A stretch of DNA of 64,000 bases from Candidatus Saccharimonadota bacterium (GTDB lineage: Bacteria > Patescibacteriota > Saccharimonadia > Saccharimonadales > Saccharimonadaceae). The notes under the pieces were generated by a model. That model did not search any database and had not been told where the DNA came from. It saw only the letters and a program-made list of their open reading frames with translations. The position numbers were made by a program, and so were the translations under genes. Shown here one piece after another: positions 19,631 through 62,387 of the stretch; within the stretch, counting starts at the first letter, position 1, and each line of letters opens with the position of its first letter. The DNA is taken from the NCBI GenBank assembly GCA_017404795.1, contig JAFRBR010000025.1, positions 1 through 64,000 of the forward strand, written 5' to 3'.

Positions 19631-20389
19631 TTAGTTGCCTTGTTTTAGCCAGTAGAATTTTTCTTGATTGCCGGTTTTGCCTTTCAGAGAGTTGTCGCGC
19701 TTGTTGATGATGATAAAATTATTTTGTTTTAGCCATTGTTCAAAATTTTTGATAATTTCGCGGCGGATTTTTTCGTTTTTGATGACGCCTCTGTTTAGTT
19801 GATCTGGGGTGGCTTCGAATTGGGGTTTGAGCATGACGAGAAAATCAGTGTGGGTGTCGCTAAGGTTGGTCTTAGCGTATGCTAAAATTATGGTTAGACT
19901 GATAAACGAGACATCGGCTAATATAATGTCTGGGACGCAAGAGAGCACTTTTTCGGGTCGCGTCCGGCCGTACGAAAGCCACGGGCGGCCGGCGCTAACT
20001 CTCGCGCTGCCGCGCTCCGAAATCCCCTCAAAAGGCTCTTCTTGCGTCCCTGGAATAAAATCAAGGATATCGGTTTTTTCGTGGAGTTCGACGCGGGGGT
20101 CGTATCTTAAGGGTTTAGCCATTTGGTTGGTTCCCTTTTCTACGGCGATGACTTTGGTGGCGCCGTGGTCGAGGGCGTACTGGGTGAAGCCGCCGGTAGA
20201 GGAGCCGATATCTAAGACAGTCTTGCCACGGAAATCAAAATTAAAGGCGCTGGCGGCGTCTTTAATTTTGAAATAGCCTCTACTTTTTGCGTTCACGATA
20301 GGCGCCTGTTTCGGTGTCGACGGAGACGATGTCGCCTTCTTTGATGAAGGCGGGGACTTTGATGACGACGCCGGTTTCGAGTTTGGCAT
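19631..20389 (-). CDS. TlyA/FtsJ-like rRNA methyltransferase with in-frame insert
   Basis: SAM-dependent methyltransferase of the TlyA family (16S/23S rRNA 2'-O-methylation in characterised members). Visible motifs are GYFKIKDAASAF, the SAM loop VLDIGSSTGGFTQYALDHGA, DIILADVSFISL and MLKPQFEA. The usual N-terminal S4 RNA-binding domain is missing. The start is uncertain: the ATG at 20389 overlaps efp by 110 bases, while a GTG at 20296 overlaps by 17 and loses only Ser/Lys-rich residues. Between the Asp motif and DVSFISL an extra 40 or so residues (GISERGSARVSAGRP region) come from the palindrome at 19932-20050. Confidence 0.8.
   Translation of the reverse strand: MPNSKPASSSKSPPSSKKATSSPSTPKQAPIVNAKSRGYFKIKDAASAFNFDFRGKTVLDIGSSTGGFTQYALDHGATKVIAVEKGTNQMAKPLRYDPRVELHEKTDILDFIPGTQEEPFEGISERGSARVSAGRPWLSYGRTRPEKVLSCVPDIILADVSFISLTIILAYAKTNLSDTHTDFLVMLKPQFEATPDQLNRGVIKNEKIRREIIKNFEQWLKQNNFIIINKRDNSLKGKTGNQEKFYWLKQGN
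19932..20050. repeat. in-frame palindromic element (family B) in tlyA-like gene
   Basis: Outer arms GGGACGCAAG / CTTGCGTCCC continue with AGAGC..CTTTT pairing. The core half-sites TTTCGGGTCGCG and CTCGCG.TGCCGCGCTCC (then GAAATCCCCTCAA) are shared with the element at 60569-60688, while the arms and the inner CCGGCCG/CGGCCGG tip are not. The reading frame stays open through it. Confidence 0.88.
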
Positions 20390-52278: not shown

Positions 52279-54471
52279 ATGACGGCAGAGGATTACCTCA
52301 AGTCTAGTGAGAGGTCGGCACTGGAAAATAATCAGATAGTCGCTAATGTGACTGGCAAAAACTCCCCAACAAAGATAAACGGAGGGGTGAAAGCTTTTGG
52401 GGCGATGGGATTTATCACCCTGATAATTATAGTGGTGGCGATATTGTTTGGTTCGGGCAATTTGATACCTTCAGCGATTTCAGAGAGATTGATTGAAGAG
52501 ACAGATATCCAGTATGCAGATGCGGTAGAGAGTAAGAAATTAGTGTTTCAACAGGCGATGAAAGGGGGTGATTTGCCGGATAACACGCTTGAAATCTTGA
52601 AGCAGAAGGGAGTGGAGGCAGAAAAAACTGAAAATGGCGAAATAGTGCTAAAAATGAACAATAAGATAGTGACGGCGGATAATTTTATTAATGAAGTGTC
52701 GACAGACGTAAACCTGTATAATGCGTTTAATGAGGCTACTTATCAGAGAGCGGCTTATTATTATGACGAGACAGCAAAAAAAGTGTTCAAAAAAATCGGT
52801 ACAACGCGAAATAATTATACAGACGAATCGGAGTTTGACGAGGTGATGGATTCGCTGATTGGAAAGGGGAGTAGAGTAGAAGTAGATAATGTGTCGGCAG
52901 TAACGGAAACTGATGAAAATGGTGAAACTAGTACTTATTATCAAAGTGTTGGTGTAGGGAGTAAATCTAGTGCGGGAGCTAAAGAATTTATTGATGGAGT
53001 GGGGGCTGTGAATGTGGCAGGAACTAGCGCGGAGGCGACTCTGAATTCGGCGGATGCTTTGAAAGTGGCGGATATAATATCTAAAGAACAGAGGTCGGAG
53101 TTGTTTTTCCTGACTTTTATGGAGAATATTAGTAAGATGAAGGCGGGGGAAGGGAATGAATCAAAAATTAATGAAGCGATGAATTATTTGTATGAGACTC
53201 ACGAGACAGAGGTAGTAGATGTAAAATCTGGGGAGGTGGTAAAAGTGAAGGGGACAGCCTTAGAATCACCTAGTTTATACGCAATACTAGCGGGGAGTAA
53301 GGTAGATGTGGGGGCGGTAGAAAATTATTCTTCGGAGCGGATACTGAAAACAGTAGAAAACCAATTAGGGGTAAATAATGGTACTAAAGCGATTACGGGG
53401 ACAGTGGCCTCGACATCTAGTGATATTAAAGGGATGATTGGGAGACTGCTAAATATGGGTGGAGAAGGGGCGTCGATAGAGACTTTAAACAAAGTGTCGA
53501 AGACAGTGGATAGCTCGCTAGTAAATAATTCTTATGAGACTATTCGAGGAATAGATGCGGGAGAGTTCTTAGTGGAAGGGGCGGTAAATGTAGGAAAGGA
53601 ATTGGCTAAGGCGAGCGGAGCTACAGCGGGAGATGCGGAAGCGGTGACAAAATACGCTAGAGTATCATCTACAGTATTAGCGATGGATGCGGAGGCTGAT
53701 AGGATGAATAGGAGCCCATTTGATATCACTTCTAAAAATACCTTCCTGGGGTCTATTATTTATAAATTAGCAGTGGCGAGTGCTGGTGTAGCTAAGAGTC
53801 CAATATTTAGTGGGGTAAAAACTTTATCTACGACAGTAAGTAGTGCGGCCAAAATACTAATATCGCCAAATAGTTACGCGGATGAAGCGAATGGGTATCT
53901 GACGGAATTTGGGGAGTGTGAAACTTATGATACGATTGGAGCAGTAGGGACGGCTGGATGCTCGGAAGTGGCGACTTTTGATACTTCGACCTTAAATGAT
54001 ATATTTAATGATCCGGGGTTTATTGAATTTGTAAATAATAATACTACACTAAGTAGTAGTGGGAAGAGGACTGTTAATCAAGATTCGGTGTTGGCGGATT
54101 TTATCCTTTATAATGATGAGCGATTAACGCCGCTTGGGGTAATGGATGGGGGGATACTAGAGTCCCTAAGTAAAGGTTCTTCGTCTATATCGTTTGTGTC
54201 GGATATTGTGGGAATGATAGAAAATCTCCTGGGGGCTTCAGAGACTAATAAGAGAGTGGCGACGGGGGCGGAATATGTGAATTCTACCAATAATCCAAAC
54301 TGGGATAAATATAAATATGCGCAAAGATACGTGTCATTAGCTAGAGCTACTGAGTCTCTGCGTCAATACGCCGGTGATTCTGCTGCCTATAATAGTATAT
54401 TTGGGTTTGAAGGTAATGAAAATCCAGTAATTGCGTTCATTGATAACTACCAAATAGGTAAGAATTTTTAA
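52279..54471 (+). CDS. large membrane-anchored protein of unknown function
   Basis: 730 residues: a short cytoplasmic start, one membrane helix (about residues 42-59) and a long extracytoplasmic, mostly helical region rich in Ser/Ala/Glu with few cysteines (GECETYDTIGAVGTAGC). I do not recognise it; similar long proteins in Saccharibacteria sit near secretion or surface loci. Its start at 52279 follows a TATAAT box. It ends IGKNF, exactly like convergent RecF, because its 3' end is one arm of a palindrome. Confidence 0.75.
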   Translation: MTAEDYLKSSERSALENNQIVANVTGKNSPTKINGGVKAFGAMGFITLIIIVVAILFGSGNLIPSAISERLIEETDIQYADAVESKKLVFQQAMKGGDLPDNTLEILKQKGVEAEKTENGEIVLKMNNKIVTADNFINEVSTDVNLYNAFNEATYQRAAYYYDETAKKVFKKIGTTRNNYTDESEFDEVMDSLIGKGSRVEVDNVSAVTETDENGETSTYYQSVGVGSKSSAGAKEFIDGVGAVNVAGTSAEATLNSADALKVADIISKEQRSELFFLTFMENISKMKAGEGNESKINEAMNYLYETHETEVVDVKSGEVVKVKGTALESPSLYAILAGSKVDVGAVENYSSERILKTVENQLGVNNGTKAITGTVASTSSDIKGMIGRLLNMGGEGASIETLNKVSKTVDSSLVNNSYETIRGIDAGEFLVEGAVNVGKELAKASGATAGDAEAVTKYARVSSTVLAMDAEADRMNRSPFDITSKNTFLGSIIYKLAVASAGVAKSPIFSGVKTLSTTVSSAAKILISPNSYADEANGYLTEFGECETYDTIGAVGTAGCSEVATFDTSTLNDIFNDPGFIEFVNNNTTLSSSGKRTVNQDSVLADFILYNDERLTPLGVMDGGILESLSKGSSSISFVSDIVGMIENLLGASETNKRVATGAEYVNSTNNPNWDKYKYAQRYVSLARATESLRQYAGDSAAYNSIFGFEGNENPVIAFIDNYQIGKNF

Positions 54472-54554
54472 ACGTGCCCTTCGGGCACGCTCCGGGCCGC
54501 TCTGGCCAAGTCTTTATGTCCCTTAGGACACATTTTAAAAATTCTTACCTATTT
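54452..54554. repeat. three-hairpin palindrome made of two gene ends
   Basis: A perfect 21-bp outer stem (AAATAGGTAAGAATTTTTAA from 54452, and its complement to 54552) encodes IGKNF-stop of both convergent genes. Inside: CGTGCCC-TTC-GGGCACG, GGCC-GCTCT-GGCC and TGTCC-CTTA-GGACA. Same cloverleaf layout as at 48461 and 50758. It probably also ends transcription from both sides. Confidence 0.9.
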
Positions 54555-59010: not shown

Positions 59011-60118
59011 AAAGAGTGTCAGGAAGTATATTTATTGGGGGTTGTTTATTGTTTTTATAATTGGTTCGATTTTAGCTGGAAATCCATTTAATTTTATAGA
59101 TATAATTATTGTTCGGCCGATTGTTAATATTCTATTTATTATATTTAATTTGGTGCATGATTTTGGACTCGCGATTATTATTTTGACGATTTTAGTAAAG
59201 CTATGTATGTGGCCGGTAATGAAGAAGCAACTGAATCAGTCAAAATTAATTCGTAAGTTGCAGCCGGAATTAGTTCAAATCAAGAAGAATTGTAAGGGTA
59301 ACAAACAATTAGAGTCTTTGCAGACGATGGACCTTTATAAACGGTATAATGTGAAGCCATTTGCATCAATGTTGACTTTATTAATACAATTGCCGATATT
59401 TATTGCGATTTTTTCGGCGATTCGGGTGGTGGCGACACCACTACCTACAGATAATTTAATGAATCGGGCGTATGATATTGTGGCGTATGAGGGGTCGGAG
59501 ATTAAAGAAATAGAGCAAAAACAAGAAGTATATCTAGCGAGTTTGGCGGATGAAACAGTGCCAGCTGAGGAGAAGTTGGCGTATGATTTTCACCCACAAT
59601 TGTTTGGAGTGATTAATTTAGATGTAAAGGCGAGTGATGTACTAATGGGGAGCTTCTCATGGTCGGCGCTGTTTATTTTGATTTGTACGGTGGCGGCTTC
59701 GGTGATTCAATACTGGGCGACTAAACAACAAATGCCATCTGGGAAATCAGAGAAGAAAAAGAAGTTCCGTGATTTGATTCAGGAAGCGAAAGATGGGAAG
59801 GAGATTGATGAAAGTGAAATTAGTACGATGGCGACTGGTTCAATGGCGGGGATGATGCCGATTATGATGTTTATTATTATGCTTAATCTTAATGGGGCGT
59901 TGGCGTTTTATTATTTCCTAAGTAATGTGATTACGGTGACTCAACAGAGGATAGTGCTTAGAAAAGTAGATGATGAAATTGATGATGTGACTGATAAAGC
60001 AGTACTAAAGGAACTAAGGGGGATCAAAGAGGCTGAAGTGGTGGAAAATAAAAAAACAGGAACAAAAGTCACTAGAATCTCCGCGAAAGATATTAAAAAG
60101 AAAAGGAGAAACACATGA
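59003..60118 (+). CDS. yidC: membrane protein insertase YidC/Oxa1
   Basis: 371 residues with five membrane helices: a first helix near residues 9-30, the conserved NLVHDFGLAIIILTILVKLCMWP, ASMLTLLIQLPIFIAIFSAIR, and a late LNLNGALAFYYFLSNVITVTQQ. The groove arginine seems to be the Lys/Arg-free IILTILVKL type. A charged cytoplasmic loop KSEKKKKFRDLIQEAKDG and tail are present. Inserts membrane proteins; followed by jag with a 4-base overlap. Confidence 0.93.
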   Translation: MDKKSVRKYIYWGLFIVFIIGSILAGNPFNFIDIIIVRPIVNILFIIFNLVHDFGLAIIILTILVKLCMWPVMKKQLNQSKLIRKLQPELVQIKKNCKGNKQLESLQTMDLYKRYNVKPFASMLTLLIQLPIFIAIFSAIRVVATPLPTDNLMNRAYDIVAYEGSEIKEIEQKQEVYLASLADETVPAEEKLAYDFHPQLFGVINLDVKASDVLMGSFSWSALFILICTVAASVIQYWATKQQMPSGKSEKKKKFRDLIQEAKDGKEIDESEISTMATGSMAGMMPIMMFIIMLNLNGALAFYYFLSNVITVTQQRIVLRKVDDEIDDVTDKAVLKELRGIKEAEVVENKKTGTKVTRISAKDIKKKRRNT

Positions 60119-60582
60119 ATAAAGATGAATCAATTAGGTTTGCCGCGAGATATTTAGAAGATTTACTGAGTTTTTTTGGGATTAATGTGGCGGTTTCATC
60201 AACGATTGATGATGAGGTGATACAACTATCGGTACCATCTACATCACTTAATTCGTTATTAATTGGACGGAATGCGGATAATTTAAGGGCTTTACAACAT
60301 ATAGTTTCAATGGCGTTGGTGTCTAAAGAGGCAGAAGTGACTAGGGTGAATGTAGATGTGGCGAATTATAAAAGGCAGAGGGCGGACAGAATTGCGACGA
60401 AGGCGGAGGGGTGGATCGCAAAAGTCCGGCAGACGGGTGAGCCGTTTGTGATGGATTTGAATGCGGCGGATAGGAGAGTGGTACACAAAGTAGCGGCTGA
60501 TTATTCGGACATTGAGACGCATTCGGAGGGGGAAGGACGAGAACGAAAACTATATATTACTAAAGTAGAAGAAACAGAATAA
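60115..60582 (+). CDS. jag: Jag/KhpB-like RNA-binding protein (KH-R3H)
   Basis: 155 residues: Jag-N-like start, type II KH domain with LLIGRNADNLRALQHIVSM, and R3H domain (DLNAADRRVVHKVAADYSDIETHSEGEG). It ends VEETE-stop, and the codons for these last residues form an arm of the palindrome at 60569-60688; the convergent LCP protein ends KETE. Confidence 0.9.
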   Translation: MNKDESIRFAARYLEDLLSFFGINVAVSSTIDDEVIQLSVPSTSLNSLLIGRNADNLRALQHIVSMALVSKEAEVTRVNVDVANYKRQRADRIATKAEGWIAKVRQTGEPFVMDLNAADRRVVHKVAADYSDIETHSEGEGRERKLYITKVEETE

Positions 60583-60688
60583 TACTATTTCGGGTCGCGT
60601 CGTTTTCCCCTGTCGCCACAGGGGAAAACGCGCTAATTCTCGCGATGCCGCGCTCCGAAATCCCCTCAATAGTATTATTCTGTTTCTT
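60569..60688. repeat. palindromic element (family B) made of two gene ends
   Basis: A perfect 21-bp outer stem (AAGAAACAGAATAATACTAT and its complement) carries the stop codons of jag and the LCP gene. The core half-sites TTTCGGGTCGCG and CTCGCGATGCCGCGCTCC match the tlyA copy. The inner tip is a 12-bp perfect hairpin GTTTTCCCCTGT-CGCC-ACAGGGGAAAAC, unrelated to the tlyA tip. Confidence 0.92.
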
Positions 60689-62387
60689 TATTTATTATTA
60701 TAACGAAATCGTATTCTTGGCTGATGCCGGCGGGGAGTTCGTCGAGGGATTTCATAGTGGTGTGGTATTTTTGCTCTAAGAGTTTTTGAGTGCCAGGAGC
60801 GGTGTTTGTGACAGCATAGAGGGTATATTCTTCGTCATGTTCGCCAGTGGGAGCATCGCCTGTGTAGATATTAGTGTAGCCGTCTTCTTCTAGGGTGGTT
60901 TGTTCGGTAGAAGCGAGACCTGGAGTTTCGGTGGCATTTAAGACTAGAATAGTGTAATCTTCGTAATTTCTGGGGTCATTACTAAACATTTTGGCGACAT
61001 AATTTTGAATATTAGCGTAATAACCGGCACCGCCGACAGGAAGAACATAGGAGATACCGTTAATGGTGCCAGTAGTCATGTAGTTTTCGGGTTCGATGAG
61101 AGAGACTTGGCGGATATTGTTGAAATCGTATTCGGAGAGGAGGTGAGCGAGGGTTTTAAGTTCATCTACTGAAAAATCAGTACGGAGATTATCGCCAAGG
61201 GTGGAGGCGAGGTTAAGTAAATCAGAGATAGAAAGGTCTTTTTCTAAGACTTTGTCTTTGATGCCGATGAGGATTTTTTGCTGAGAGGCACCACGTGAGA
61301 AATCACCACTGGTAGTGCCGTGACGAGCACGAGCTAGACCTAGGGCTTGACCGCCATTGATAGTGTAGGGAGTGTTGGCTTCAAAAATAGCACCGGTGTA
61401 TAATTCATCATTAATATCTTCATCTAAAGTGACAGTGATACCACCTAAAATATCAACAATAGAAACTAGAGAACCCCAGTTGAGATGGGCGTAATATTGG
61501 AAATCAATACCGAGAATGTCACCGACTTCAGCTACGAGAGCTTCGGCGCCGGCTTGCTCGTTGTCACCGTCCATATTATTACACCAATAAACTTCGTTGA
61601 TTTTGCCGGTGGCGGTGCAAGTAGTGGAGACTTTGAGATCGCGGGGGAGAGAAAGCATGGCGAGGTCGCCGGTTTCTTGGTTGAGACTAATTACCATAAT
61701 AGAATCGGTGAGCTGGGCGCCATCATGAACATATTCACCCTCGGTGCCCTCCATATCATAGCCACTTGTACCGAAGGCGAGAATATTGGTGCGGCCGTTT
61801 TCGTCGGTTTTTAATGGTTCGTAAGTTTCGTCTTGAAAGATAAGATCAAAAATATTACCTTGACCACCAGTGATTTTGGCGATGATGTCATTACCCCAAA
61901 TAATAAAGATAATACCACCGACTAGCAAAAGACTAAGAATAGTAATTACGATACCAGTGATGATTTTACGTTTTTTACTCATGGGTTTTTTGTCTTTCTT
62001 TTTGGATTTTTTTGATTTTTTGATGGGGTCTTTAGAGGCAACAAGCTGACCGGATTGTTCGTCAAAATTAAAAGCTTGAACGGGTTTAAGAAAATCTTCG
62101 GTAGTGGCAGTGGGTTGGGGGGTAGTTGGTGGAGTGGTAGATTTAGGGGTGGATTTGGTTGGTTTGGCTGATTTAGTGGTTGATTTGGTGGGTTTTAAAG
62201 TAGTTGATTTCGTGGTTTTAATTGCTTTAGTGGAAGGGGATTTGGCCTTGACGGCGGTTGATTTGGTGGTCCGGGTTTTAGTGGTTTTTGTAGTGGATTT
62301 AGGGGTGGATTTTTTGACGGTAGAAGAAGTAGTCGTCTTTTTGAGACGACGAGGAGCTAGGCCATCAATTGATTTATTTTTGTCCAT
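60675..62387 (-). CDS. LytR-CpsA-Psr (LCP) family glycopolymer transferase
   Basis: 570 residues: a long Lys/Thr/Ser-rich cytoplasmic start of low complexity, one membrane helix (about residues 142-165), the LCP catalytic domain with NILAFGTSGYD, SLPRDLKVST, GGITVTLDEDIN, ALGLARARHGTTSGDFSRGASQQKIL, and a C-terminal LytR_C domain (TILVLNATETPGLASTEQ). LCP enzymes attach teichoic-acid-like polymers or glycans to peptidoglycan. TATAAT is eight bases before the ATG. Confidence 0.9.
   Translation of the reverse strand: MDKNKSIDGLAPRRLKKTTTSSTVKKSTPKSTTKTTKTRTTKSTAVKAKSPSTKAIKTTKSTTLKPTKSTTKSAKPTKSTPKSTTPPTTPQPTATTEDFLKPVQAFNFDEQSGQLVASKDPIKKSKKSKKKDKKPMSKKRKIITGIVITILSLLLVGGIIFIIWGNDIIAKITGGQGNIFDLIFQDETYEPLKTDENGRTNILAFGTSGYDMEGTEGEYVHDGAQLTDSIMVISLNQETGDLAMLSLPRDLKVSTTCTATGKINEVYWCNNMDGDNEQAGAEALVAEVGDILGIDFQYYAHLNWGSLVSIVDILGGITVTLDEDINDELYTGAIFEANTPYTINGGQALGLARARHGTTSGDFSRGASQQKILIGIKDKVLEKDLSISDLLNLASTLGDNLRTDFSVDELKTLAHLLSEYDFNNIRQVSLIEPENYMTTGTINGISYVLPVGGAGYYANIQNYVAKMFSNDPRNYEDYTILVLNATETPGLASTEQTTLEEDGYTNIYTGDAPTGEHDEEYTLYAVTNTAPGTQKLLEQKYHTTMKSLDELPAGISQEYDFVIIINKETE

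Follow-up and report, generated by a model that had tools for sequence, protein, structure and literature searches.

The genes jag and LCP are convergent neighbours in a gut member of the Candidatus Saccharibacteria near Nanosyncoccus, and the proteins they encode, which are unrelated, end in the same residues. How can two proteins that are not related come to share their C-terminus? The locus is part of a stretch of 64,000 nucleotides, which is called the window in the following. Its features are compiled in Table 1.

Table 1. Features of the jag-LCP junction and of other hairpin elements in the window.
Feature	Position	Strand	Remark
jag (Jag/EloR)	60115..60582	+	ends ...KVEETE-TAA; NCBIfam name, below curated cut-off
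LCP-family glycopolymer transferase gene	60675..62387	-	ends ...INKETE-TAA; NCBIfam, above curated cut-off
Left arm	60569..60589	+	jag 3' codons including the stop (EETE-stop); probably the rewritten copy
Right arm	60668..60688	-	LCP 3' codons including the stop (KETE-stop); probably the original
Family-A core	60590..60667	+	branched hairpin (closing stem, long stem P2, short stem P3)
P2 hairpin CGTTTTCCCCTGTCGCCACAGGGGAAAACG	60601..60630	+	13-bp perfect inverted repeat; paired changes across copies
P3 region TCTCGCGATGCCGCGCTCCGA	60638..60658	+	most conserved stretch of the core
Second family-A core	19953..20029	+	in frame inside the minus-strand tlyA-like gene
Arms of the tlyA-like copy	19932-19952 and 20030-20050		
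Hairpin element with a different core (CGTGCCCTTCGGGCACGCTCCGGGCCGCTCTGGCCAAG...)	54452..54554	.	perfect 21-bp arms; absent from sister L105

The palindrome between jag and the LCP gene

The identity of the two gene ends is one of DNA and takes in bases beyond the stop codons. The arms, AAGAAACAGAATAATACTATT, are perfectly complementary over 21 bp, and over 26 nt the complementarity amounts to 92%. Within the window the 20-mer of the arm occurs without mismatch at these two places only, and shuffles gave 0 matches. A preliminary description had traced both endings, EETE-stop and KETE-stop, to one perfect 21-bp inverted repeat, which is borne out by the coordinates of the arms. It had also named a core common to the junction and the tlyA-like gene, and the second copy was indeed matched there.

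The core enclosed by the arms is GC-rich, and together with them the whole feature measures 120 bp. The match to the covariance model reaches 90 bits (E 3.9e-17). Across the aligned copies many pairs of P2 are altered on both sides while the pairing is kept, and compensatory changes are likewise found in the short P3 stem and the junction pair. The core has no match among the Rfam families; the search returned solely a tRNA and one sub-threshold match, which was judged to be chance.

According to the covariance model up to 18 copies are present in the 692-kb genome of the window (G000), for which a DNA search indicated ten further places with at least part of the core. Among 198 genomes sampled from the order 16 have matches at the model's threshold used for this count. 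Thirteen of these belong to the Nanosyncoccus-like genus, the remaining three to two other genera of the same family. The 120-bp feature is likely to be one copy of a mobile element which is short, structured and non-coding and belongs to Nanosyncoccus-like Saccharibacteria, and this degree of confidence covers the joint reading of a mobile hairpin core and one host flank which becomes the inverted copy of the other. As mobile unit the core of about 75-78 nt plus some proximal stem bases is the best explanation. Cores similar to that of the different hairpin element of the window (54452-54554) were found in L122 and L169.

Arms and insertion sites of the family-A copies

The flanks around almost all copies, those of related genomes included, are inverted copies of each other. 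When each flank was compared with the flanks of all other copies, the own flank was the best match in 40 of 47 copies, and those exceptions that were inspected go back to misparsed boundaries or to sister copies sharing one trmD site. In an independent held-out set of 20 model-found copies, four of them from another genus, every copy was matched best by its own arm (own mean 32.4 versus 12.3 for mismatched arms, sd 2.9). Three copies of the window genome (L010, L011 and L014) have identical 75-nt cores with 0 mismatches and unrelated arms, and further identical cores with unrelated arms are found in L235, L236 and L237. It follows that the element does not bring its outer arms along.

These data also bear on a more conventional interpretation. 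Being short, multi-copy, non-coding, palindromic and dispersed, the element resembles a MITE, whose terminal inverted repeats would be served by a transposase in trans and whose arm variation would be nothing but mutation. We consider this very unlikely, as identical 75-nt cores with unrelated arms contradict it, as the arms match their own partner and not those of other copies, and as the type of transposase searched for, Y1 (RAYT/IS200-like, PF01797), is found in none of the 24 genomes of the genus; the control genomes were matched. A nested-layer model, in which every jump puts a further layer on the arms, may account for the proximal arms common to L072 and L085, but most proximal arms are not shared between sites. 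Mirror-copying around the family-A core is supported as a general property of the mobile element family, beyond the jag-LCP junction.

A single extra base forms a bulge in the right arm of 41 of 49 copies and in the left arm of 14. The recurrent bulge of the right arm is apparently indifferent to which arm is ancestral, and it is not predicted by simple fold-back copying. In L051 and L087 (G006) a second, partly degenerate arm copy adjoins the right arm, as if it stemmed from an earlier insertion or a failed event.

The majority of the copies (36 of 51) is located in an open frame with at least 30 codons on both sides. Several frames are used, and 20 of these copies are oriented along the gene and 16 against it. 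All inserts seen within genes are in frame and stop-free; examples are those in trmD, truB, tgt and ligA. The genes hit are often essential ones, which the inserts leave unbroken. For TrmD, TruB and Tgt, homologues of solved structure align on either side of the insert, and the simplest reading of the sequences is that the in-gene inserts would be translated as extra loops. This placement is also relevant for the idea that selection keeps the arms complementary for the sake of a working long RNA stem, one host side dictating the other, with a role as terminator, in mRNA stability or in the removal or bypass of the insert. The extensive compensatory change in the core, a bulge which recurs on one strand and the frequent placement between convergent genes would all fit such a stem. 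Against this, arms are already near-complete at unrelated sites where the cores are identical. The greater part of the family-A copies is located, in either orientation, within coding sequence, in which a terminator would do harm, and keeping the frame matters solely if the insert is translated. Selection for an RNA stem is therefore an unlikely explanation of the arms.

Sites which are empty in some genomes allow a direct comparison. The empty trmD, nifS-like, mnmA and tlyA-like sites lack an inverted repeat; their inverted-repeat scores are 9-15, those of the occupied sites 21-61. It follows that one flank was rewritten as the inverted copy of the other, either when the core landed or afterwards. 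Under the reverse order of events the core would enter the loops of palindromes present beforehand (terminators or repeats), the arms would belong to the old target and nothing would be rewritten. This order draws on the fact that hairpin-targeting elements exist elsewhere. It has a low probability in our opinion, since the empty sites contradict it, for trmD to the point of refutation, and many arms are coding sequence unlike terminators.

The loop of trmD was examined at 23 loci, 12 of which are empty and 11 occupied. The occupied loops contain family A in both orientations as well as several other cores, all in frame and stop-free. The upstream (left) arm codes for the conserved AREFA, with an inverted copy of it as downstream arm, so that on sequence grounds the left arm is taken as the ancestral coding sequence. 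In the tatD-like gene of G018 it is the right, downstream arm (KLVAIGE) which looks ancestral. Judging from the lengths, the inverted copy in trmD seems to replace host sequence of about equal length; for the nifS-like gene there is no sign that host sequence was lost.

Some further sites deserve mention. The trmD loop is an insertion hotspot in an essential enzyme, with about five kinds of hairpin element across species and inserts in L178-L183, L187, L189, L064, L070 and L088 which are always in frame. One MnmA (L042, G006) contains two separate family-A inserts, one of them at the site used in G003. Hairpin elements with matching arms are also present in the rpmH-rnpA gap of L119, L120 and L137, and in L119 a second partial copy of the right arm is located nearby.

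Gene ends at the jag-LCP junction of relatives

Of 17 loci with an insert-sized gap between the two genes, 13 have gene ends which are inverted copies of each other (own score 33.8 versus 13.1 for mismatched pairs, sd 3.6). A shared end was called at a score of 24 or more, which is reached by 1.6% of mismatched pairs, and four of the 17 loci are below it. Among loci without an insert 5 of 24 have inverted-copy ends, and at least one of these five (L135) is a palindromic terminator. The shared C-terminal residues are SAE in L098, IE in L093, TE in L126 (N. alces), ELN in L130, SEE in L132 and ETE in the window. As they mostly differ by species, they are not conserved protein ends. That one gene end had been overwritten by an inverted copy of the other, as the preliminary description held, is supported by this comparison with relatives, which speaks against both C-termini being ancestral and conserved.

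Could the two native C-termini simply be alike by chance? Jag and LCP both often end acidic, and the LCP protein ends TE-stop also in L105 and L094, the latter with a Jag ending in ETD-stop. A coincidence is nevertheless extremely improbable in view of an identity at the DNA level of 21 bp including post-stop bases, of shared residues which are mostly species-specific, and of the mean score of 13 for mismatched pairs against 34; the DNA of the two ends matches species by species.

The inserts at this junction are not restricted to family A. Other elements found here are bounded by nearly perfect arms, about 18-28 bp in length, and the jag stop codon falls within several of these. Directly 3' of jag, insertions of several element families recur across the genus, namely in L091, L093, L098, L113, L117, L119 and L126.

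Complementary ends around a short gap also occur without a long insert, as in L135 and L097, which means that the mobile core is not strictly needed. The insert-free L135 has a palindromic terminator whose hairpin stem reaches both stop codons. Such junctions are what insertion into pre-existing palindromes would expect. The pair L095 and L100 argues for rewriting instead. In L095 the LCP gene ends NKTDS-stop and in its sister L100 NKKSE-stop; the end in L095 is built from the jag end, with AAAA shared at the join, and L100 lacks the arm that L095 has in LCP. Jag retains the common SKI-stop in L150 and L165, and through the inverted copy of this end LCP stops in a different frame. Copying from jag to LCP thus occurs in L095 and in L150/L165, and a comparison of L169 with L164 seems to indicate the opposite direction.

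For the window the sister L105 is informative, with which it groups in the YidC+Jag tree (support 100/100). In L105 the LCP gene is located about 3.7 kb from jag and no palindrome is present. Its LCP protein ends AKTTE-stop with ACAGAATAA intact, its Jag SKIV-stop. Since in L105 LCP ends TTE-stop and Jag KIV-stop, the LCP end appears to be original, and the 3' end of jag in the window was probably rewritten as an inverted copy of it. In the neighbouring clade the Jag proteins of L126 and L135 end TE-stop as well, with palindromes of their own, and the rewriting of the Jag end is therefore probable rather than proven.

A possible mechanism and known systems

We propose that the core lands and that, then or later, one host flank of about 8-28 bp turns into the inverted copy of the other. 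The nascent DNA strand with the new hairpin would fold back, its 3' end would copy the adjoining host sequence, and a microhomology would let the copied strand return to the template, which is the course of quasipalindrome template switching. Copies would in consequence sit within a site-specific palindrome, and in the window the 3' end of jag would have become an inverted copy of the LCP end, with the same last residues and stop. Short runs of bases shared at the joins, by our reading AAAA in L095/L100 and CTC in trmD, are consistent with re-joining of this kind, and a fold-back template switch seeded by the mobile hairpin is the most likely copying step. A variant, to which we give a little less than an even chance, is that these are a bacterial class of mobile hairpin elements whose insertion itself makes an inverted instead of a direct target duplication, the hairpin end priming the copying of the host flank and several unrelated cores using the same route within one genus. 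If true, host sequence completes the palindrome wherever the element inserts anew.

RVT_1 reverse transcriptases are encoded by most members of the genus and four are found in the genome of the window. As mobiliser they were rejected: G003 and G018, with six copies each, are without reverse transcriptases, and the four loci resemble diversity-generating retroelements, having an accessory-like ORF beside the reverse transcriptase and in two of them (L224, L227) a variable-protein-like gene. Four diversity-generating retroelements (L224-L227; G000 C19, C23, C12 and C4) are thus apparently present in a 692-kb genome. No mobilising enzyme was found among the RVT_1 and Y1 transposase candidates of the genus genomes.

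The spread of small palindromic repeats in bacterial genomes is a standing question, and a review from 2007 states that their movement by transposases is without experimental support (PMC2229807). With arms made from host DNA each copy records its own insertion, which provides a readable signature of the mechanism. Apart from the shared C-termini, such insertion would also let essential enzymes acquire, in a single step, additional loops of some 30 residues or longer. In the open-access literature we did not find described an inverted target duplication by small bacterial repeats, nor palindromic repeats of this kind in Saccharibacteria.

Several known systems share some of these properties. 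Small, dispersed and gene-free hairpin repeats are likewise known as REP/RAYT and bacterial MITEs. These are described as moved by transposases and have constant ends, the MITEs with constant terminal inverted repeats, whereas here the arms vary while cores are identical and no Y1 is found in the genus. In inverted-repeat homogenisation one arm is copied onto the other, in coding DNA too and over several residues at once (PMC8604942). The conversion of one flank into the inverted copy of the other is common to both, but quasipalindrome switching starts from an existing imperfect repeat, and here the inserted hairpin would seed it between flanks without a prior repeat.

Newly made inverted target repeats flank the inserted DNA of the fungal mitochondrial invertrons kalilo and pAL2-1, which itself bears terminal repeats (PMC1864894). 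These are linear mitochondrial plasmids with own polymerases and flanking repeats of up to kilobases, but they offer a precedent for inverted flanks which arise anew from the target. The mitochondria of Nematomorpha have perfect inverted repeats in coding genes which are gained and lost between species, and template switching was proposed for them; the consulted part of that report, unlike our data, mentions no mobile core common to the sites (PMC6649704).

By description the element is also close to the Rickettsia palindromic elements (RPE), which are palindromic, about 100-150 bp long, occur as several families in one genus and are found as in-frame inserts in conserved protein genes and also between genes (PMC2229807, PMC10969869). 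The same is seen here with 36 of 51 copies in open frames and with TrmD, TruB and Tgt aligning on both sides of the insert. RPE carry their own terminal inverted repeat of 12 bp (PMC2229807), in contrast to the outer arms described here, which arise at each site from the sequence of the host. Our data support that the element works like the Rickettsia in-frame palindromic elements, and that what is new about it are the inverted arms made from host sequence.
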